Positions 182 to 20,789 of a stretch of 23,675 nucleotides of DNA are shown here, one piece after another; position 1 is the stretch's first letter; each line of letters opens with the position of its first letter. The DNA lies in the IMG/VR virus record IMGVR_UViG_3300025225_000006, positions 1 through 23,675 of that record. The stretch is one strand, 5' to 3'. The position numbers and the translations under genes were made by a program. This DNA comes from a virus. The notes beneath the pieces were generated by a model. The model ran no database searches, was not told the DNA's origin, and was given only the letters and a program-made list of their open reading frames with translations.

Positions 182-257
182 GCCGCTGTAGCTCAGTCGG
201 TAGAGCAGCGCATTCGTAATGCGAAGGTCACCAGTTCGATTCCGGTCAGCGGCACCA
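182..257 (+). tRNA. tRNA-Thr (anticodon CGT)
   Basis: The 76 nt fold into a standard cloverleaf. The 7-bp acceptor stem is GCCGCTG paired with CAGCGGC, the D stem is GCTC/GAGC, and the anticodon loop TTCGTAA puts CGT at 215-217. The T loop is TTCGATT, and an encoded CCA closes the gene at 255-257. The anticodon reads ACG (threonine). Two stem mismatches are visible: one at the top of the anticodon stem and one A-C in the T stem. The gene is complete and directly abuts the prophage segment. This is typical of phages whose att core reproduces a tRNA 3' end. Confidence 0.95.
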
Positions 258-1143: not shown

Positions 1144-1890
1144 ATGTCTAACAGCAATCCGAGTGCGACCAAATTTGGTGAAGAAAAAGTCGTAGAGCTT
1201 ACTCAAGAGCAGAGTCGGTTTATCAGAGATTTCGCATTTGCCCACCTGAACAAAGTAAAGGACACCGACCAGCTAAAGCACTTTGCCGAGATGTGGTGGA
1301 ACTTGTGTCAATGGGAGAAGCAAAGATTAGACATTCTCGACTCAAAGGCTCAGATGCTGCTTGGCCTTTCCGGGATAGCGACCGCAATTCTGGGCACAGG
1401 AATCGCACAGCAGCCGAGCCTGTTGCGGGCTTGTGCCGCAGTCGCCTTTCTTCTCACGATGATTTCCGCGCTAGTTGCGCTCTTCGTGAAGAAGGTGGGA
1501 GGGTTCCTCGACTACGAGGTATTCGAGGCCCTCTCGGCAAATACTTCACCTGTAGGAGTGACCCCAAAGTTTAGGGACGGAGACAAAGTCAACTGCTACT
1601 ACCGCGAAATTGTTTTGCAGCGGTGGTTTGTGTATGACCAATACAAGAAAGCGTCCGAAAAAAAGTCTCCGTGGGTGAAGTGCGCCCAGTTCATGGCCGT
1701 TGGGGCGATCTCTTTGGCGGCAGCGGCACTGGTAGCAGCAACCAACTATTTTCAAGGTAGCGCCGCACAACAGACGACAAATGTAGCTGCCCCGCTTCCC
1801 GGCCCCACCGCCGCATCGGCACCCGCACCCGCCGCTTCGTCAACTGCTGCACCGATACCGGCTGCGGGAAAGCAAGCATCCAAACCTTGA
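1144..1890 (+). CDS. Three-helix membrane protein, possible Pycsar/SMODS-type TM effector
   Basis: The 248-aa protein has a soluble N-terminal helix region. This is followed by a DxKAQ motif (Asp66-Lys68-Ala69-Gln70) directly before two close transmembrane helices (about 71-88 and 94-115). A cytosolic loop comes next, then a third helix (about 178-200) and an Ala/Pro-rich tail (208-248). The motif DxKAxxLL leading into paired helices followed by a later helix resembles the DUF5706/PycTM and SLATT families of membrane-damaging defence effectors. That match is by architecture, not a firm homology. No cyclase or CD-NTase gene is next to it. AGGA at 1134-1137 precedes the ATG by 6 nt. Base composition is lower in G+C than the phage late genes. 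Confidence 0.6.
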   Translation: MSNSNPSATKFGEEKVVELTQEQSRFIRDFAFAHLNKVKDTDQLKHFAEMWWNLCQWEKQRLDILDSKAQMLLGLSGIATAILGTGIAQQPSLLRACAAVAFLLTMISALVALFVKKVGGFLDYEVFEALSANTSPVGVTPKFRDGDKVNCYYREIVLQRWFVYDQYKKASEKKSPWVKCAQFMAVGAISLAAAALVAATNYFQGSAAQQTTNVAAPLPGPTAASAPAPAASSTAAPIPAAGKQASKP

Positions 1891-1930
1891 AAGTTCATTT
1901 TCTGATCTGCACTAAAGCACCGGAGCGAAC

Positions 1931-2461
1931 ATGCCTGCCATGAAGAAGATTGCTGTTAAGAAAGTTCCTGCAAAGAAGGCCGCCGGGACGGTCGCTGTAA
2001 AGGCCTCTGCAAAGAAGGCCGTCGGAAAGGTGGCAGCGAAGGCACCTGCCAAGAAGGTCTCTGGAAAGGTCGCGGTGAAGGCGCCGGCAAAGAACGCCCC
2101 CGGAAAGGTTACGGTGAAGGCGCCGGCAAAGAAGGCCTCCGGAAAGGTTACGGTGAAGGCACCGGCAAAGAAGGTCCCCGGAAAGGTCGTGGTGAAGGCG
2201 CCGGCAAAGAAGGTCTCCGGAAAGGTCGTGGTGAAGGCGCCGGCAAAGCGGGCTGTTGTGAAGGTTGTTGTTGTAAAGACTCCCGCAAAGAAGTCCGTTG
2301 TCGAGGTCGTTGTAAAGGCCGCCGGTAAGGTCGCAGTGAAAGTGCCGGCAAAGAAAGCCGCCCTTAAGAAAGTTGCTGCAAATGGCTATCCCAGAAAAAG
2401 GATCATCGCGAAGAAAGCAGCGGCCAAGAGGCCTGGCGGCGGCGGCGCAGGAGACCGGTAA
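1931..2461 (+). CDS. Lysine-rich histone H1-like repeat protein
   Basis: The 176-aa protein is almost entirely Lys, Ala, Val and Pro. It carries seven tandem 13-residue units of the form GKVxVKAPAKKxx (residues 19-109). Degenerate PAKK segments and a basic tail ending in a Gly-rich stretch follow. This composition is that of bacterial histone-H1-like (Hc1/AlgP/BpH1-type) proteins, which bind DNA non-specifically and can compact the nucleoid. GGAG lies about 9 nt upstream of ATG 1931. A second in-frame ATG (codon 4) is possible. Finding such a gene among phage cargo is unusual. A role in DNA condensation is inferred from composition only. Confidence 0.75.
   Translation: MPAMKKIAVKKVPAKKAAGTVAVKASAKKAVGKVAAKAPAKKVSGKVAVKAPAKNAPGKVTVKAPAKKASGKVTVKAPAKKVPGKVVVKAPAKKVSGKVVVKAPAKRAVVKVVVVKTPAKKSVVEVVVKAAGKVAVKVPAKKAALKKVAANGYPRKRIIAKKAAAKRPGGGGAGDR
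1985..2257 (+). repeat. Seven tandem 39-bp repeats inside the H1-like gene
   Basis: Seven contiguous 39-bp units encode GTVAVKASAKKAV through GKVVVKAPAKRAV. Units 3-7 are most alike at DNA level (AAGGCGCCGGCAAAGAA core). Such an array is prone to change copy number by slippage in frame. Confidence 0.85.
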
Positions 2462-2724
2462 ACGTCAGGGGCGATAGGCCGGTCAATGGCCAATGACAGC
2501 CATACGCGGTCCGGTAGGCGGCGCTATTCACCTAGCTGACGAAGATGCGCGTCGTCCGCAGGTTGCCATCGCATCCGCCTTCTGCATGCGCGCTTGAATA
2601 CTGCAGGAGGCAAGCGCATAAATTTGCATAACCCGGCGGAGAGTCCTCCGTCCACCTCAACCCACGCCTCCGGCTGATTGGACAGCGTCTGCGCCTGCAT
2701 AAATACCACTCGATAAAGCGCGCA

Positions 2725-2743
2725 GGTGAGGCGGGGTCCCAAC
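2725..2743. other. Candidate cos site (cohesive-end sequence)
   Basis: GGTGAGGCGGGG at 2725-2736 matches the start of the P2 19-nt cohesive end (GGCGAGGCGGGG...) at 11 of 12 positions. It lies in an otherwise gene-free stretch (2462-2954) to the left of Q, the side on which P2 cos lies. The last seven bases do not match P2. If correct, the packaged genome would begin here with the SOS-controlled genes and Q. The H1-like gene would be near the other end. This rests on sequence memory of P2 cos and on context. No other function is evident in the 2462-2954 gap. Confidence 0.45.
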
Positions 2744-2929
2744 GGCGCGCGCCGCGTCGCGGCACCAGCCTCGCCGGCCTCCTCACCCGTCGCACCAGAA
2801 CCCCACCGACACGCGCACAGCGCGCGTAGCAACACAATCAACAACGGGATGACGCCTGGGCGCCTGTTCGCCAAGAAGCGCTCCAACGCCCCGCTAGGTG
2901 CCTCTCTGTCCACGTCTGCATTGTCTACG

Positions 2930-2974
2930 TTGACTCGTAGGACCGTGCCCCGGATACTGTATATCCATACAGTA
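2930..2974 (+). promoter_or_regulatory. SOS promoter with LexA box
   Basis: CTGTATATCCATACAG at 2957-2972 is a perfect CTGT-N8-ACAG LexA operator, with flanking TA/TA extending the dyad to 2955-2974. A possible promoter overlaps it: -35 TTGACT at 2930-2935, a 17-bp spacer, then -10 GATACT at 2953-2958. LexA would therefore block the -10/start region. The start codon of the next gene is 12 bp after the operator. The -10 assignment is approximate; the operator itself is clear. Confidence 0.85.
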
Positions 2975-2984
2975 TTCTGCAATC

Positions 2985-3509
2985 ATGGCAACGCCCCCTC
3001 CATCCCGCTTCATCCACCGCTATCGCTACATGGAAGCGGGGAAAAAGACCTGGAAATCCACTCGCCACCACATGAGCGCAGAGGATGCCGCCAAGTTTTT
3101 TGCCCCGGGACCGGGGCGATACCGCGTTGTAGAAAAATGGGAGCCCATCGAGCAATCGCGGATGGAGATTCCCGGCACGCCGCCAGAGATCGGACAGGGT
3201 GTTGGCGGTGGCCGGCGCAAAGAACCGCCTCGGCTCACGGTTGAAGAGATCAAAGAGATTTGGGAGCGCAACCGAACCCCAGACGTGCATCGGCTTGTCT
3301 GGGAGATTTGGTATCTACGGCAAGATATTCATTGGGCTCGCTATGTCGCTACAGTGCTTGAGGTGACTGGCATCGAGCGGCCATTCGAATACCGTCTCAC
3401 GACCCTGCTGCAGTCGCTACGGCAACACCCTTCGCCCAACGCGCCGCCATTGCGATGGTTTCCCGATGAAGAAGCCGCGTTAGAGCGAATTGCGAAGTCT
3501 CGCCGCTGA
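2985..3509 (+). CDS. SOS-controlled hypothetical protein
   Basis: The 174-aa protein is not recognised. It is charged and soluble, with no signal peptide or membrane helix. The N-terminal third is rich in aromatic and basic residues (RFIHRYRYMEAGKKTWKST). A helical region rich in Trp/Arg follows (about residues 85-150). ATG 2985 has no evident Shine-Dalgarno sequence and sits about 20 nt after the predicted transcription start, so a short leader is implied. It lies directly behind the LexA box and 32 bp before the SRAP gene, so both are probably one DNA-damage-induced transcript. A repair or damage-related role is inferred from this setting only. Confidence 0.75.
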   Translation: MATPPPSRFIHRYRYMEAGKKTWKSTRHHMSAEDAAKFFAPGPGRYRVVEKWEPIEQSRMEIPGTPPEIGQGVGGGRRKEPPRLTVEEIKEIWERNRTPDVHRLVWEIWYLRQDIHWARYVATVLEVTGIERPFEYRLTTLLQSLRQHPSPNAPPLRWFPDEEAALERIAKSRR

Positions 3510-3541
3510 TCTATGATGGCCTGAGTCTATGGGAGCCGCCC

Positions 3542-4477
3542 ATGTGCTACTCCGCCCAAATCGAAGCCGACTATCGACGATTCGTACACGAGTACGGCGC
3601 CATCATGTCGCTCGACGATTTCACGCGGATGGTGATGGAGTACTTCGCCAACCCGAAGATGCGTGTCCCGAGGGCCATGACCGCGCACTTCCTCGAATCG
3701 CCCGAGACCGACGAAGAAAAGAAGATCGCCGAAGTCATCCGCGCGCGCATGGCCGCAGACGAAATCGCGCTGCTGCAGGAGCTGGCCAAGCAGACCGAAC
3801 GGCTGGAGAAAGCCCAGCAGGCCCTCGCCTCCAAGGCCACCAAGAAAGCCGCCGAAGACATCCGCATCGCCACCAACAAGATCGCGGCGGCCAAGGGCAA
3901 ACTGGAAGAACTCAGGAGCACCGAGCTCAAGCCGCGCGACTCGCGCATCTACCCCGGCTGGTATGCGCCTGTGATGGTGATGGAGAACGGCCGGCGCGTC
4001 GTCAAGCCGATGCGCTACCAGTGCCGCCCCGCAGGCAAACCGGCCTTCTACGACGAGCAGTACCCCGGCACCTACAACGCCCGCCGAGACAACCTGCGCG
4101 GCTTTTGGAAAGGCCAATACGGCCACACACACGGCCTGATCCTCGTTGACGCGTTCTATGAAAACGTGACGGGGCCGGACGGCAAAAACCTCGTGCTCGA
4201 ATTCCGCCCCGACCCGCCGCAGACGTTGCTCGTCGCCTGCGTGTGGTCACACTGGCGCGCGACCAAGCCCGGCGAAAAGGATCTGCTGTCGTTCGCCATC
4301 ATCACCGACGATCCGCCGCCGGAGATTGCGGAGGCCGGGCACGACCGCTGCCCGATTCCGATCAAGCCGGAGAACATTGATGCGTGGCTGAACCCGGAGC
4401 CGCGCGACCTCGATGCCTTAGACGATATCTTGGACGACAAGATATGCCCTCACTATAATCATCGGCGCAGTGAGTAG
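3542..4477 (+). CDS. SRAP-domain protein (YedK/HMCES-like abasic-site crosslinker)
   Basis: The 311-aa protein starts MCYSAQ. Cys2 becomes the N-terminal residue that forms a thiazolidine link with abasic sites in single-stranded DNA. Other family landmarks are visible: YNARRDNL with Asn179 and Arg181, FYEN with Glu207, and the HDRCPI segment with His267. Residues about 55-125 form a long charged helical insertion, probably a coiled coil, absent from short YedK proteins. GGGAG about 7 nt upstream supports ATG 3542. It follows the unknown SOS gene by 32 bp. SRAP proteins shield abasic sites during replication and some are SOS-linked. Here it may protect phage DNA during induction (inference). 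Confidence 0.88.
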   Translation: MCYSAQIEADYRRFVHEYGAIMSLDDFTRMVMEYFANPKMRVPRAMTAHFLESPETDEEKKIAEVIRARMAADEIALLQELAKQTERLEKAQQALASKATKKAAEDIRIATNKIAAAKGKLEELRSTELKPRDSRIYPGWYAPVMVMENGRRVVKPMRYQCRPAGKPAFYDEQYPGTYNARRDNLRGFWKGQYGHTHGLILVDAFYENVTGPDGKNLVLEFRPDPPQTLLVACVWSHWRATKPGEKDLLSFAIITDDPPPEIAEAGHDRCPIPIKPENIDAWLNPEPRDLDALDDILDDKICPHYNHRRSE

Positions 4478-4525
4478 ATCATCGCTCCAGGCCACGAGAA
4501 AAACGAGAAAGGGGGTTATCCTAAA

Positions 4526-5425
4526 ATGACGAATAGCGAAAAAAAATGGACAATATTAGCCGCGGTTTTTACCGTTCTTAGCTTCATTGTTGGAGCAATC
4601 GCACTACTTCCCCTTACAAAGTCGAAATCGCTAACATACGAAATTAGATCGGAAACAAGCTTTACCCAAATAAGCGATTTCGGTCAGCTCGACATCGGCC
4701 TAAACGGACACAAGCTAACCTCTCCGAAATTGACGGTAATTCGAGTTTCGAATACCGGTAACGTACCCATCACTGCACCAGACTTTGACGGGCCGCTTAG
4801 GGTGGTGTTTAGTGACGGCATGCTGATCGAGGGGATCAAAATTGCGGAGACAACGCCGACAGGCATCCCAGTACAAGTTAATAAAGAAAACAGCGAAGCT
4901 CGGGTCGCACCACTCTTGCTGAACCCTGGCGATACATTCGATCTTTCCATATTGACATCAAATAATCGGCAGGGTCCGCCCGAATTTACCAAGCTTTTTT
5001 CTGAGCTTAGCTCGCCCCCGAAGGTAATCGCGCGCATCTCCGATTTATCAGAGATTGTCAGCAAATCTCCTCAATTAAAAGCATCCAACCCGCAACACCC
5101 TTATCTACTGGCGTTCTTAGTGCTTGTCATTTACGGATGCAGCGCCGTTTTTCTTGGCTCGACAATTAGAAAGAACAACATCAGCACACGGCAACTTATG
5201 CCGGAAGCACTTGTTCTATTTTTGGCAAATCTCGGAGTCATATATTCGATTGGCTCGCTTAAGCTCGAACTGAGTACGACAGGGCGATTCGCGCTCATCT
5301 TCACGTCTGTAACAGCTGGCGTCCTTGTGGCGTATAGAGCCCGAGCGATCGGTCGAACAACCGCTCCGGCCCTGGGCAATTCGGAGTCCGGCTCCAATTC
5401 ACCTGCAACTTCGCCGAGCCAGTAG
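4526..5425 (+). CDS. Membrane protein of unknown function, accessory cargo
   Basis: The 299-aa protein has one N-terminal transmembrane helix (about 8-30). An approximately 160-residue extracytoplasmic or cytosolic domain that looks rich in beta strands follows (about 35-190, with conserved-looking RVSNTGNVPI). Three C-terminal helices come next (about 192-212, 225-243, 254-271), then a Ser/Pro-rich tail. The family is not recognised. AAGGGGG at 4509-4515 is a strong ribosome site. The DNA is visibly richer in A+T than the flanking genes, a sign of separate acquisition. It converges on Q with only 8 bp between the stop codons. Location and composition suggest a moron, possibly for superinfection exclusion or defence (inference). 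Confidence 0.7.
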   Translation: MTNSEKKWTILAAVFTVLSFIVGAIALLPLTKSKSLTYEIRSETSFTQISDFGQLDIGLNGHKLTSPKLTVIRVSNTGNVPITAPDFDGPLRVVFSDGMLIEGIKIAETTPTGIPVQVNKENSEARVAPLLLNPGDTFDLSILTSNNRQGPPEFTKLFSELSSPPKVIARISDLSEIVSKSPQLKASNPQHPYLLAFLVLVIYGCSAVFLGSTIRKNNISTRQLMPEALVLFLANLGVIYSIGSLKLELSTTGRFALIFTSVTAGVLVAYRARAIGRTTAPALGNSESGSNSPATSPSQ

Positions 5426-13817: not shown

Positions 13818-14248
13818 TGAAGGCCACCAGCCTGCGCGAGGCCTTGACGGCCGCCGTCCCTTACCTGGCAGCGCACCCTGAAGCGCTGCATGTCTTTGTC
13901 GATGAGGGAAACGTGGTGGGCACCGGCGCGCGCTCGCTCGGGTTCGAGTACCGGTACACGCTCACCTTGATCGTGACCGACTACCCAGACAGCTCTGACA
14001 CCGTCGTCGTGCCCGTCCTAGGCTGGCTGCGCACCAACCAGCCCGACGCCTTCACCAACCCAGACAAGCGGGAAGACGCCTTCAAGTTCGAGGCCGAAAT
14101 CCTGAACCACACCACCGTCGATATCTCCATCAAGCTGAAGCTGACCGAACGGGTCACAGTGAAAGTGGACGGCAAGGGCTACCAGGTGCAGCACCACCCG
14201 GAGCCGATCAACGAAGACGATGACCCGGCCACATGGAGGCCTGCGTGA
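13814..14248 (+). CDS. R: Tail completion protein R (P2 gpR family)
   Basis: The 144-aa protein (P2 gpR 155) follows the lysis genes in the P2 order. It has the family features SLREALTAAVPYLAAHPEALHVFVDEG, YTLTLIVTDYP and VPVLGWLRTNQPD. It is needed to finish the tail for head joining. Its ATG overlaps the Rz stop, and its TGA overlaps the GTG of S. Confidence 0.92.
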   Translation: MMKATSLREALTAAVPYLAAHPEALHVFVDEGNVVGTGARSLGFEYRYTLTLIVTDYPDSSDTVVVPVLGWLRTNQPDAFTNPDKREDAFKFEAEILNHTTVDISIKLKLTERVTVKVDGKGYQVQHHPEPINEDDDPATWRPA

Positions 14249-14691
14249 GCGACCTGCACGAGCTGGACGCATACCTGGTCGGCCTACTTGGGAAATTGGA
14301 TGCGCCGGAGCGCCATGCGCTGGCCCGCGCCATTGCGGTGGAGCTGCGCCGCCGGCAATCAGCGCGCATCGCTGCGCAGCGCAACCCGGATGGCACGCCG
14401 TACGAACCGCGCAAGCCGCAGCTACGGCACAAGCGCGGCGGCATCCGGCGCTCGATGTTCACGCGGTTGCGGATGGCGAAGTACATGCGCATTGAGGCGA
14501 GCCCACACGCGGCCGTAATCTCGTTCTCCGACAAGGTGCGGCGCATTGCGTCGGTGCATCACTTTGGGCTGCGCGATCGGGTGAACAAGAATGGCTTGAC
14601 TGCACAGTACCCAGCGCGCGCCCTACTCGGCCTACAGGAGGGTGACACTGACCGGATCGCCGATCTAGTCCTCCTACACCTCTCCCTCTAG
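14245..14691 (+). CDS. S: Tail completion/virion morphogenesis protein S (P2 gpS family)
   Basis: The 148-aa protein (P2 gpS 150) begins MSDLHELDAYLVGLLGKL and carries the basic segment RRRQSARIAAQRNPDGTPYEPRK and HHFGLRDRV typical of gpS. I chose GTG 14245 because GGAGG at 14235-14239 lies 5 nt upstream and the GTGA overlaps the R stop. The ATG at 14233 has no ribosome site and would add four residues. It is the last virion gene before the NTPase insertion. Confidence 0.92.
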   Translation: MSDLHELDAYLVGLLGKLDAPERHALARAIAVELRRRQSARIAAQRNPDGTPYEPRKPQLRHKRGGIRRSMFTRLRMAKYMRIEASPHAAVISFSDKVRRIASVHHFGLRDRVNKNGLTAQYPARALLGLQEGDTDRIADLVLLHLSL

Positions 14692-14727
14692 AATTTGCAC
14701 ACTTGATCAAAACTGTGGGGGCGGACG

Positions 14728-16494
14728 ATGAGCAAGACTGTGGTCGAGAGTGTTATCAAACGTTTCGTGGAAACTCCGACACCCCAGGTCATTGCGGTTA
14801 CAGGACCATGGGGCGTTGGCAAAACGTTCGCCCTAAAAAGCCTCCTGGAGGGGTATCGAGGCAATCCAGCGGTCCACCGCTACGCATACACGTCCATATT
14901 TGGGGCTCAAAGTACTGGTGAAATCCGAACCTCGCTGCTTTCGAGGAGACAGTCGTTCCCATTTTTAGATGACGCCGAACTTGCGGCAGCGCCGAGCAAA
15001 CAACGCCTACTCGCCTCTTTCAACCGTAAGCGCAGTCAGATCGCAGACAAGGCGAATTTCAAACAAGCCTACGATAGTTTGCGAGAAGCAGCACCGTGGG
15101 GCGGAAAGCACATCCTCGTCGCCGCTGAGACATTGGCGGGCTCCCTCGTAAGCGACATGCTCGTAGTCCTAGACGACATCGAACGCATTGGAGAGCGTCT
15201 TTCATTCGAACACTTTCTTGGGCTCGTGACAGAGCTCCGAGATCAGCAGCGGTGCAAGGTGATTCTCGTCTTCAATGAAGACGGCTTCAAGAAAGAACAC
15301 CGTGCGACTTATGAGCGCTACGCAGAAAAGGTCGTTGACCAACAGCTTCGCTATCGGCTTGACGAAGCTGACGCCGCTGCCATAGGCATAGCGGCAGACA
15401 CTCCGAATCGTGACCTCCTCGTCGCAACTTGTGCTGGTCTACGTATTAACAATATTCGGGTGCTTCAACGGATCGAGACGGCCATGAAACTGATCACGCC
15501 GGTTATCGCCGACTTATCCCCTTCCATCCAGCATCAGTTGGCTGTCACCGTCCCGGTATTTGCGTGCTCCATATATGAGAGAGCACGGGGTTTCCCCGAG
15601 CCGGAGACGATGCTCAAATTCAGCGCATACAAACGACCTATGCAAGCTCCAGCAAGGAGCAGTGCAGAGCCCCCCGACACTAGCAATGAGTGGGCAGAGC
15701 TGCTTGACAGCGTGGGCTTCATGAACGCGGACGATTTCGACGCAGCCGTAATGGAGATTATGCAGAGGGGATACGTGGAGGGCTCGCTGGTCAGGCTGCT
15801 TGCCGAAGACTTAGACCGCACTGCACATCGAGAGGAGAAGACTCAAGTCTTTCGGGATGCGTGGTCAATGTTCCGAGATCGCATCGACATGCAGAGTGAA
15901 GAAGTAGTGAAGTCCTTCGTCGATGCCATCGCATCAGCCGCTGATGCGATCGGCCCACACGATTTAGACGCCACAGTTCGCCTCCTCCGTCGATTGGGCT
16001 TCGACAGTGAAGCAAATAGCGTCATCGATCTATACATTGAACAGCGGAAATCCACGCCGAAGATATTCGAGGTTGCGCCCGATAACCCATTGGGAGCCAT
16101 CGTCGATCCCATACTAAAGGAGCGCTTGCTGGATGCCCACCACAAACTAGGCGCTACTTTGACATTAGAGGATGCCGCCATGTTGGTCTTGAAGAACGAC
16201 GAGTGGGATCACGGAATACCCCATGCATTCCAACATGCCACCGCCGCCGATTTGGTCGCCATCTTTGAGAAATTTCAAGGTCCCTCGCTGCGGAGCCTAA
16301 TTACGGGAATCATCCGGCTACCAATCCCCGAGGAGGTGCGCACCCCAATCATGACGGTTCTTTTTGATGCTCTACGGCTAATTGCAGAAAGGTCGGAGCT
16401 CAATCGAATCCGGATCAAGCATTGGGGGTATGACATCGATTCTCTGGCGCCTTCGGCGCAAGTGCGTGCGCCGGAGAAAACCCCGGGCCAGTAG
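14728..16494 (+). CDS. KAP-like P-loop NTPase, accessory gene inserted between S and V
   Basis: The 588-aa protein has a Walker A GPWGVGKT (26-33) preceded by VIAVT. A YAYTSIFGAQSTGEIR segment follows (about 52-67), then Walker B LVVLDDIER (145-153) and a sensor-like VILVFNED (178-185). This is the layout of the KAP and related P-loop NTPases, many of which are linked to phage defence. The C-terminal 350 residues look helical and are not recognised. No membrane helices are obvious, unlike classical KAP proteins. GGGGGCGG upstream supports ATG 14728. Base composition is lower in G+C than S and V. It has no virion counterpart in P2, so it is a moron. Confidence 0.8.
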   Translation: MSKTVVESVIKRFVETPTPQVIAVTGPWGVGKTFALKSLLEGYRGNPAVHRYAYTSIFGAQSTGEIRTSLLSRRQSFPFLDDAELAAAPSKQRLLASFNRKRSQIADKANFKQAYDSLREAAPWGGKHILVAAETLAGSLVSDMLVVLDDIERIGERLSFEHFLGLVTELRDQQRCKVILVFNEDGFKKEHRATYERYAEKVVDQQLRYRLDEADAAAIGIAADTPNRDLLVATCAGLRINNIRVLQRIETAMKLITPVIADLSPSIQHQLAVTVPVFACSIYERARGFPEPETMLKFSAYKRPMQAPARSSAEPPDTSNEWAELLDSVGFMNADDFDAAVMEIMQRGYVEGSLVRLLAEDLDRTAHREEKTQVFRDAWSMFRDRIDMQSEEVVKSFVDAIASAADAIGPHDLDATVRLLRRLGFDSEANSVIDLYIEQRKSTPKIFEVAPDNPLGAIVDPILKERLLDAHHKLGATLTLEDAAMLVLKNDEWDHGIPHAFQHATAADLVAIFEKFQGPSLRSLITGIIRLPIPEEVRTPIMTVLFDALRLIAERSELNRIRIKHWGYDIDSLAPSAQVRAPEKTPGQ

Positions 16495-16502
16495 CAAAAA
16501 AT

Positions 16503-16575
16503 TCGGCTTCGGCGGCCTGGAATCTTTCACTCTCCCCTCTACCCCAGGGGAGTGGTGTTTCCATACTGAAGCCGA
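16503..16575 (+). terminator. Nested hairpins after the NTPase gene, possible terminator
   Basis: An outer 8-bp inverted repeat (TCGGCTTC 16503-16510 with GAAGCCGA 16568-16575) encloses a 7-bp hairpin CTCCCCT/AGGGGAG (16532-16538 with 16546-16552). No strong U-tract follows, so termination is uncertain. The position between the NTPase stop and the V promoter fits a transcription barrier. Confidence 0.4.
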
Positions 16576-16582
16576 GCTGCCG

Positions 16583-16603
16583 TTGTGACGGCCCGGCTCA
16601 CAA
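16583..16603 (+). promoter_or_regulatory. Late-promoter activator site upstream of V
   Basis: TTGT-N13-ACAA repeats the motif at 8292-8312 and 20823-20843. The alternating CG tract at 16623-16634 lies about 35 bp downstream of its centre, as at the FI site. A start 55 bp from the dyad centre would fall at about 16648, one base before the V start codon. Confidence 0.72.
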
Positions 16604-16648
16604 CAACCCCCGCGTGACCCCCACGCGCGCGCACGGCACTCTGCAGGC

Positions 16649-17266
16649 ATGGACCTCGCAGAACTCGCCCGCCTCATCGAAAACCTGATCCGCATCGGCA
16701 CCGTGACCGACGTGCGCCACGGCAACCCGCCTGCCGTACGCGTGCGCACCGGCGGCATCACCACCACCTGGCGCCCGTGGTGCGAACGCCGCGCCGGCGG
16801 CACCCGCACCTGGAACCCGCCCACCACGGGCGAGCAGGTCGTGCTGCTCTGTCCCAGCGGCGAACCATCCAACGGCATCATCCTGTGCGCCATCCCGTCG
16901 GACGCCAACGATGTGCCGAGCCATTCGCCCAGCGAGACCGTCACGCTGTACCCGGATGGCGCCCTCACCAAGTACGACCACGCCGCAGGCCTGCTCACCG
17001 TCCAGGGCGTTAAAACCGTCTTCCTGGAAGCCGCCACAAGCGTCCTAGTGAAGTGCCCGGACACCACCTTCGACGGCTCGGTCACGGTCAAGGGCCTGCT
17101 GTCCTTCATGAACGGCATTGCCGGCCAGGGCGGTGACAACGGCAACGTCATCACCGGCGATCTGACGCACCGAGACGGCAAGCTGTCGTCCAACGATGTC
17201 GTGCTCGACAACCACAGCCATGGGGGCATCAAGCAAGGCGGAAGCTGGACGGACGGCACGCGATGA
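16649..17266 (+). CDS. V: Baseplate assembly protein/spike V (P2 gpV family)
   Basis: The 205-aa protein (P2 gpV 211) starts MDLAELARLIENLIRIGTV. It contains the OB-fold region VRVRTGGITTTWRPWCERRAGG and TGEQVVLLCPSGE, then a beta-helical C-terminus ending GDLTHRDGKLSSNDVVLDNHSHGG. The His-rich end (NHSHGG) is typical of the membrane-piercing spike tip, which coordinates metal. The start has only a weak GCAGG upstream. Its stop overlaps W. Confidence 0.94.
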   Translation: MDLAELARLIENLIRIGTVTDVRHGNPPAVRVRTGGITTTWRPWCERRAGGTRTWNPPTTGEQVVLLCPSGEPSNGIILCAIPSDANDVPSHSPSETVTLYPDGALTKYDHAAGLLTVQGVKTVFLEAATSVLVKCPDTTFDGSVTVKGLLSFMNGIAGQGGDNGNVITGDLTHRDGKLSSNDVVLDNHSHGGIKQGGSWTDGTR

Positions 17267-19722: not shown

Positions 19723-20361
19723 ATGACTCTTGAACAACAACTGGCAGACGCCATCGCCGCGCAAAATGCCCTGACACAGGTGGTCGCCGGTAAGCAGGCG
19801 CAGATCGATGGGGCGACTGGAGCACAGCAAGCTGCGTTTGCCGCATGGATGGACAACGCGAAGCATCAGTTCGCATCGAACAATCTCCGCGCCCTATTTG
19901 TAGGCGGCTCGGAGAGCAAGTGGTACCCGGTCGTTTTTTCCCTACCGGCCCGCGTGCTTGGCCGCGTCAACATCGGCCGCGGCGTGCACAACGATGCAGA
20001 CAAGTACGGCAAGTTCAACGGTTCAATGAACTTCAGCCTCGATGTCGTCAGCGGTGAATGGGGCGGCGCGCCGGGGCGAGTCATCCCGATCAGTTACCAG
20101 TATTCCTTGGGCACGAACGCCGTGAATCCCTATGTCGCCGACTTTGCAGCAGATGTGTACGGCATGGCGCTCGTCGTTTATCTGTTGGGCCAGCGCACAT
20201 ACGACATCTCAACGTCCTGGCAAGGGGACGTGACGGCCTACACGGCAGACAAAAACAATCTGATCTTTTCCGCCGAAGGCGATGAATACGCGATCTTTCG
20301 AGACGCTAGAACGGAAGTCGCTGCGTCCATGCTGCCCAACAACTATCTTCGAGGAGGTTAA
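19723..20361 (+). CDS. Putative distal tail-fibre/receptor-binding protein
   Basis: The 212-aa protein has a helical N-terminus (MTLEQQLADAIAAQNALTQVV, about 1-50) suited to trimerisation. A beta-rich aromatic body follows (GGSESKWYPVVFSLP, GRGVHNDADKYGKFNGSMNFSLDV, YGMALVVYLLGQRTYDIS). It lies exactly where P2 carries the rest of H and chaperone G. I infer that it forms the host-recognising tip as a separate chain. AAGGTGAAG precedes ATG 19723. No similarity to the P2 G chaperone is seen. Confidence 0.65.
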   Translation: MTLEQQLADAIAAQNALTQVVAGKQAQIDGATGAQQAAFAAWMDNAKHQFASNNLRALFVGGSESKWYPVVFSLPARVLGRVNIGRGVHNDADKYGKFNGSMNFSLDVVSGEWGGAPGRVIPISYQYSLGTNAVNPYVADFAADVYGMALVVYLLGQRTYDISTSWQGDVTAYTADKNNLIFSAEGDEYAIFRDARTEVAASMLPNNYLRGG

Positions 20362-20363
20362 TC

Positions 20364-20789
20364 ATGCAGGCACCGAACGATTCCGTTGGCTTCACAGATC
20401 TGAGCGCCGCTCAGAAGGCCGAGCTCCTGAAACAATGGGAGTCTCAGCAGACTCAAATTGCCAAAGAGCGTTTGCGCATGCAAATCGAAGGCGTGGCCGA
20501 CACAAAGACCCGTGAAGGCGTCATGTCGGACGTCGTCGGCATGATGTTTGTTGGGCTGGCCGAGCTCGTGGTTGCGCTGTCTAAGGCGAAGAGCCTTGCA
20601 GACATTAATTCGGCAGTCGAGCCGCTCTTCACGATCGGCAGTGCCGTCGATTCGGCAGTCAAGTCAGGCGCATTGAAACTGCCCTACATGGTCAAGGATG
20701 GCGGCGCACAGGGCGTGCTGGCTGACATGACGAAACTGTCGAATGGCATCGCCGCAGTCATTGCAGCGTCTGAGCCCGCCGCCAAATAG
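20364..20789 (+). CDS. Hypothetical fibre-cluster protein
   Basis: The 141-aa protein is not recognised. It starts MQAPNDSVGFTDLSAAQKAELL, has a helical first half and a moderately hydrophobic stretch (about 54-73, VMSDVVGMMFVGLAELVVAL), then Ala/Val-rich helices. GAGGAGG six nt upstream makes expression likely. It lies two bases after the distal-fibre stop and is the last gene before the FI promoter. It may be a fibre chaperone or a separate cargo protein; the sequence does not decide. Confidence 0.6.
   Translation: MQAPNDSVGFTDLSAAQKAELLKQWESQQTQIAKERLRMQIEGVADTKTREGVMSDVVGMMFVGLAELVVALSKAKSLADINSAVEPLFTIGSAVDSAVKSGALKLPYMVKDGGAQGVLADMTKLSNGIAAVIAASEPAAK

Follow-up and report, generated by a model that had tools for sequence, protein, structure and literature searches.

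A KAP-like NTPase gene inserted at the hypervariable S/V junction of a P2-like prophage is a candidate anti-phage moron

The window analysed here, meaning the whole 23,675-nucleotide stretch of viral record IMGVR_UViG_3300025225_000006, most likely derives from a prophage of a betaproteobacterium, judging from its relatives. Downstream of gpR (PF06891, 7e-51) and gpS, and ahead of gpV, it carries a single gene for a KAP-like NTPase, arranged as follows.

14233..14691, + strand: gpS, tail completion gene forming the left border of the hotspot (PF05069, 1.8e-33)
14692..16581, no strand: variable cargo segment, from the S stop to the V late-promoter dyad
14728..16494, + strand: KAP-like NTPase gene (PDC-S49 / phrog_4740), 588 aa, ATG start, intact open reading frame
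14728..15351, + strand: predicted alpha/beta AAA+-like P-loop core, residues 1-208
14803..14826, + strand: Walker A, GPWGVGKT, residues 26-33
15160..15186, + strand: Walker B, LVVLDDIER, residues 145-153
15679..16422, + strand: predicted all-helical C-terminal region, residues 318-565
16532..16552, + strand: inverted repeat 3' of the NTPase gene, a possible but weak terminator (2 found, 2.1 expected by chance)
16582..16604, no strand: V late-promoter dyad GTTGT-N13-ACAAC, right border of the hotspot, GTTGTGACGGCCCGGCTCACAAC
16605..16648, + strand: remainder of the V promoter and leader, cgtgacccccacgcgcgcgcacggcactctgcaggc
16649..17266, + strand: gpV, baseplate spike gene (PF04717, 1.3e-13)

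The reading frame and both Walker motifs lie exactly where the initial annotation had put them, and its placement of the gene between S and the V late-promoter dyad is upheld by the Pfam assignments of the neighbours (gpR, gpS, gpV) and by the exact dyad. It had also described the insert as lower in G+C; the NTPase gene indeed has a GC content of 0.545 and a GC3 of 0.60, well below the values of the virion genes from Q to FII (GC 0.60-0.71, GC3 0.71-0.91), above all in GC3. Its reading frame begins 36 bp beyond the stop codon of S, on the strand of the late genes. A promoter scan found no sigma-70-like promoter 5' of it, an exact-site scan of the window placed no GTTGT-N13-ACAAC dyad there, and the insert holds no partner gene beside the NTPase.

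Exact GTTGT-N13-ACAAC dyads occur at only three sites in the window, 8291 (near the O start), 16582 (V) and 20822 (upstream of FI), the positions at which late promoters stand in P2-like phages. All three share the same spacing. In shuffled sequences, even with up to one mismatch allowed, the mean number of such sites was 0.35, and none of 100 shuffles reached three. The P2 late promoter is usually quoted as TGT-N12-ACA; the spacing in the window is 13.

Relatives were gathered with gpS and gpV from viral contigs, and with gpV also from 398 genomes (Caballeronia udeis family). Across 37 loci (a number that includes overlapping fragments of one contig), the S-V interval ranges from 74 to 2883 bp, whereas the control intervals M-L, L-X, R-S, V-W, W-J, J-I and FI-FII at the same loci each vary by no more than 42 bp. 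The S/V junction is thus a real, hypervariable cargo hotspot, as had been surmised from the single sequence. Among close relatives (viral contigs whose gpS shares 73% identity or more), none of the 17 distinct S-V intervals is empty (612-1962 bp, GC 0.54-0.61); most hold unrelated genes, and the NTPase is missing from the majority. Six loci just beyond this close group (L074, L076, L122, L125, L129 and L130) have an empty site, an interval of 74-97 bp with little in it besides the stop of S and the promoter of V; the site is occupied in L123, L126 and L128, and in L124 the interval measures 281 bp. When relatives are aligned, nothing just 3' of S is conserved, and conservation returns in the stretch that runs from the dyad up to the V start, irrespective of cargo, so cargo goes in after the S stop and ahead of the V promoter. 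The NTPase gene is a foreign insertion.

This junction corresponds to orf30, one of the three moron regions of P2-like phages, at which foreign genes have been described (PMC3091744, PMC6823313). The NTPase insert sits exactly at orf30, rather than at Z/fun or in the TO region (old/tin), and the location of the hotspot is in itself already known. At a separate locus, L148 (5149-9692), a partial duplication in the order S, V fragment, S surrounds an antisense KAP-like gene; this arrangement is perhaps a trace of cargo entry into the slot.

Comparison of the S-V intervals shows that the slot also receives other cargo, nucleases among it and one known gene of the exclusion type. HMM scans identified an NYN-OST-HTH (NYN-LOTUS) protein in L006, an Mrr-type restriction nuclease (Mrr_cat) in L016, a DUF6602/NucC-like nuclease in L013, a weakly matching HEPN-like protein and an MtlR-like protein in L008 (L007 holds a similar MtlR-like protein), and an N6/N4 DNA methyltransferase in the more distant phage L045. 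The HNH nuclease of L126 (5279-6256) has a long N-terminal region and a weak match to type IV restriction (1.4e-4), and L128 encodes a similar ORF at the same junction; both loci are Burkholderiaceae prophages, and the nuclease is a further restriction-type candidate. In the isolated phage KS5 the gene in this slot, gp28, carries the annotation of an Old-type ATP-dependent endonuclease, and in KL3 a methyltransferase, gp28, lies, by gene numbers, between V (gp27) and S (gp29) (PMC3091744). Many further cargo genes are unrecognised or encode small membrane (2-TM) proteins, and small DUF3022-like ORFs recur; since many of these genes have no known function, the slot is not exclusively defensive.

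The full-length AlphaFold2 model of the NTPase (mean pLDDT 82.7) consists of an N-terminal alpha/beta P-loop core, with pLDDT mostly 77-95 and a helical insert of weaker confidence at about residues 90-140, and a second half that is all helical (mean pLDDT 84 for residues 318-565 folded alone). The best Foldseek matches in the PDB are AAA+ ATPases (ORC/Cdc6, Mpa), with TM-scores so low (0.2-0.3) that the structure match identifies only the core. A fold search with the C-terminal region gave no confident PDB match, the weak hits being to TPR, 14-3-3 and TOG helical folds (best E 0.1, prob 0.77), and a profile search of solved structures returned no relative of the NTPase (best E 0.08). The expectation of a large, unrecognised helical C-terminus is therefore borne out by the model, as is the absence of the usual KAP membrane helices: the highest 19-residue Kyte-Doolittle mean is 1.79, and the model contains no membrane-like segment. 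Searches with Pfam, PADLOC, NCBIfam and fold comparison recognised no effector domain. In a full-length alignment of 17 homologues the invariant residues include G26, W28, G29, G31 and K32 of Walker A, S56, F58 and G59, D149, D150, E152 and R153 of Walker B, and G165, E200, K201, N242 and R244; N183, nearly invariant, may occupy a sensor-1-like position.

The P-loop core of the NTPase scores above the gathering threshold of the Pfam KAP_NTPase model (PF07693; E 7.8e-9, 35.6 bits, gathering score 20), but the model covers residues 7-203 only, and the remainder differs from KAP NTPases in having another C-terminus and no membrane helices. In many KAP members, not all, transmembrane helices interrupt the P-loop domain; the group includes QatA of qatABCD and PifA, the plasmid F protein responsible for exclusion of T7. 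A PifA HMM gave no match to the window NTPase at E<=1, and in the homologue L015 it matched the P-loop only, weakly (1.4e-3). As in STAND, AVAST and NLR-like sensors, a large all-helical region, here a predicted one with no significant repeat-fold match, comes after the ATPase core of the NTPase, and its P-loop is weakly similar to nSTAND and NB-ARC models; it differs from them in its short helical part, the lack of an N-terminal effector and best structural matches that are AAA+-like. The NTPase also corresponds closely to PDC-S49 and PHROG 4740, whose length class (about 560-630 aa) and single-gene format it shares. PADLOC matches PDC-S49 over residues 22-396 of 588 (E 1.1e-21) and phrog_4740 matches residues 2-421 (6e-39), and the family is a listed defence candidate. 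PDC-S49 is a label for a defence candidate only, and PHROG 4740 likewise has no named function in these libraries; NCBIfam has no name for the family, and our literature search found no paper naming PDC-S49.

The window protein is a divergent member of its family, 18-50% identical to the aligned homologues; the homologues L015, L122, L131 and L132 also match PDC-S49. An alignment-based search of viral contigs recovered 21 family loci. Genome scanning with this protein alone as the query recovered a single relative (L002, Caballeronia); only 26 of the 398 genomes carry a match, a sparse occurrence as expected for mobile cargo. Within P2-like phages, members occupy the S/V junction in the window, in L015 (= L138; 50% identical, with the same gene arrangement) and, antisense, in L148. 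Elsewhere they lie between S and J beside a DUF6232 protein (L145), beside Q, where the proven old/tin defence region lies (L142, L156), between Q and a ParA/replication-protein block (L140), and antisense after gene D in L122/L149, where the phage's own S/V site is empty. Outside P2-like phages, a Zot-bearing element (L141) carries a member, others lie next to integrases (L137, L139), and still others are found in an E. coli phage record of 109 kb and on plasmids, some of them large, of Cupriavidus, rhizobia, Klebsiella and E. coli. In HMM scans of the neighbourhoods, GmrSD adjoins the Caballeronia gene and lies about 2.8 kb from the L134 gene, Pycsar PycC (3.5e-80), PycTM and a SIR2-like protein lie about 1-4 kb from the L132 gene, and a TIR protein lies about 2 kb from the L136 gene. 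Because a handful of loci were inspected and several others have no recognisable defence gene nearby, this association with defence genes is suggestive and is not a measured enrichment.

Taken together, these data make it fairly likely that the NTPase, an orf30 moron, protects the lysogen against competing phages. The slot is filled with differing genes in related viruses, several of them directed against viruses, which makes a weapon against rival viruses the most likely role for this one. Pointing in the same direction are the Old-type and nuclease cargo in a hypervariable slot, the PDC-S49 match, the presence of the family at several P2-like moron sites and near defence genes, its sparse distribution, the invariant catalytic residues and the AAA+ fold. 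Counting against defence are the co-orientation with the late operon, the start 36 bp after the S stop, the lack of a sigma-70-like promoter and the lack of a recognised effector domain. A literature search found no experiment in which any member of the family blocks a phage.

An AAA+ core joined to an all-helical half with no significant match suggests an ATP-driven switch whose helical half serves in sensing or binding. The protein would be a soluble switch of the AAA+/STAND type. At rest the NTPase core would be held off; the helical C-terminal half might then bind a phage component, or a host component altered by the phage, and ATP-dependent oligomerisation would either block the infection or stop growth of the cell (abortive infection). 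By analogy with the AAA+/STAND class we infer both the oligomerisation and the trigger; the nature of that trigger, and the choice between cell death and direct blocking, are speculative. As no separate effector domain (nuclease, TIR or membrane) is visible, the action would have to come from the oligomer itself or from a host partner. More tentatively still, and with the odds against it as a whole, the family could consist of soluble, single-gene KAP/AAA+ phage sensors that form a mechanistically new class, having no effector domain, membrane part or partner gene and halting infection through the ATP-driven oligomer itself. Such a class would be spread over P2-like phages, Zot-bearing elements, large plasmids and defence islands, and S/V (orf30) would be a second defence hotspot, besides old/tin, in betaproteobacterial P2-like prophages.

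It is somewhat unlikely that the NTPase is instead non-defensive lysogenic-conversion cargo, acting in stress response, element maintenance or competition, at a junction that merely tolerates inserts. Many S/V genes do lack a defence annotation (the DUF3022-like, MtlR-like and 2-TM proteins), and family members reside on large plasmids and next to integrases. Against such a role stand the nucleases and the Old-type gene in the very same slot, and a family that is classed as PDC-S49, lies beside Q and is found near GmrSD, Pycsar/SIR2 and TIR genes. A narrower kind of protection, in which the NTPase is a specific superinfection-exclusion or interference factor that hits the replication or packaging of related P2-like phages or satellites and is no broad sensor, strikes us as improbable. 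P2-like phages carry several exclusion genes at their moron sites (old, tin, Z/fun), among them the Old-type gene of KS5 at this same junction (PMC3091744); however, the family extends well beyond P2-like phages, to the 109 kb E. coli phage record, Zot-bearing elements and plasmids, which suggests a broader target. That the protein is a late lytic-cycle component of the S-V module, such as an assembly chaperone or tail factor, is very improbable: it lies on the late-gene strand, close behind S and with no obvious promoter of its own, as in L015, but its GC3 falls below the 0.71-0.91 of the virion genes, most close relatives (S and V about 73-94% identical) do without it, and its own relatives are antisense or elsewhere (L148, L122/L149) and also in non-P2 elements. 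Absence from most close relatives means that the NTPase is not a virion gene, and we rejected that assignment, the family being found at other sites and on other strands.

The best-tested P2 defence hotspot lies between gpA and gpQ in E. coli phages, and its cargo has been assayed functionally (Rousset et al. 2022, PMC9122126). Our literature search found no functional test of S/V cargo. The betaproteobacterial S/V junction behaves like that hotspot, being short, with S and an unchanging promoter block as its borders, and filled with cargo that differs in nearly every phage and includes several nucleases. With gpS on one side and the GTTGT-N13-ACAAC block plus gpV on the other, it offers a simple anchor for gathering candidate cargo genes, and the KAP-like family is itself a widespread defence candidate with conserved catalytic residues.

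Three other features of the window deserve mention. A moron-like region lies outside gene Q (1144-5425), corresponding to the cos/old-tin side of P2, and contains the following genes.

1144-1890: predicted 2-TM protein, GC3 0.58
1931-2461: lysine/alanine-rich repeat protein
3542-4477: SRAP/YedK-type gene (PF02586, 1.9e-19)
4526-5425: low-GC protein (phrog_29378 match, GC3 0.51)

A tRNA-Thr (CGT) gene at the left end of the window (182-257) is a possible prophage attachment site. Between H and FI (19723-20789), where P2 has its G/Z-fun region, lie two ORFs of 212 and 141 aa with lower GC and no Pfam match.
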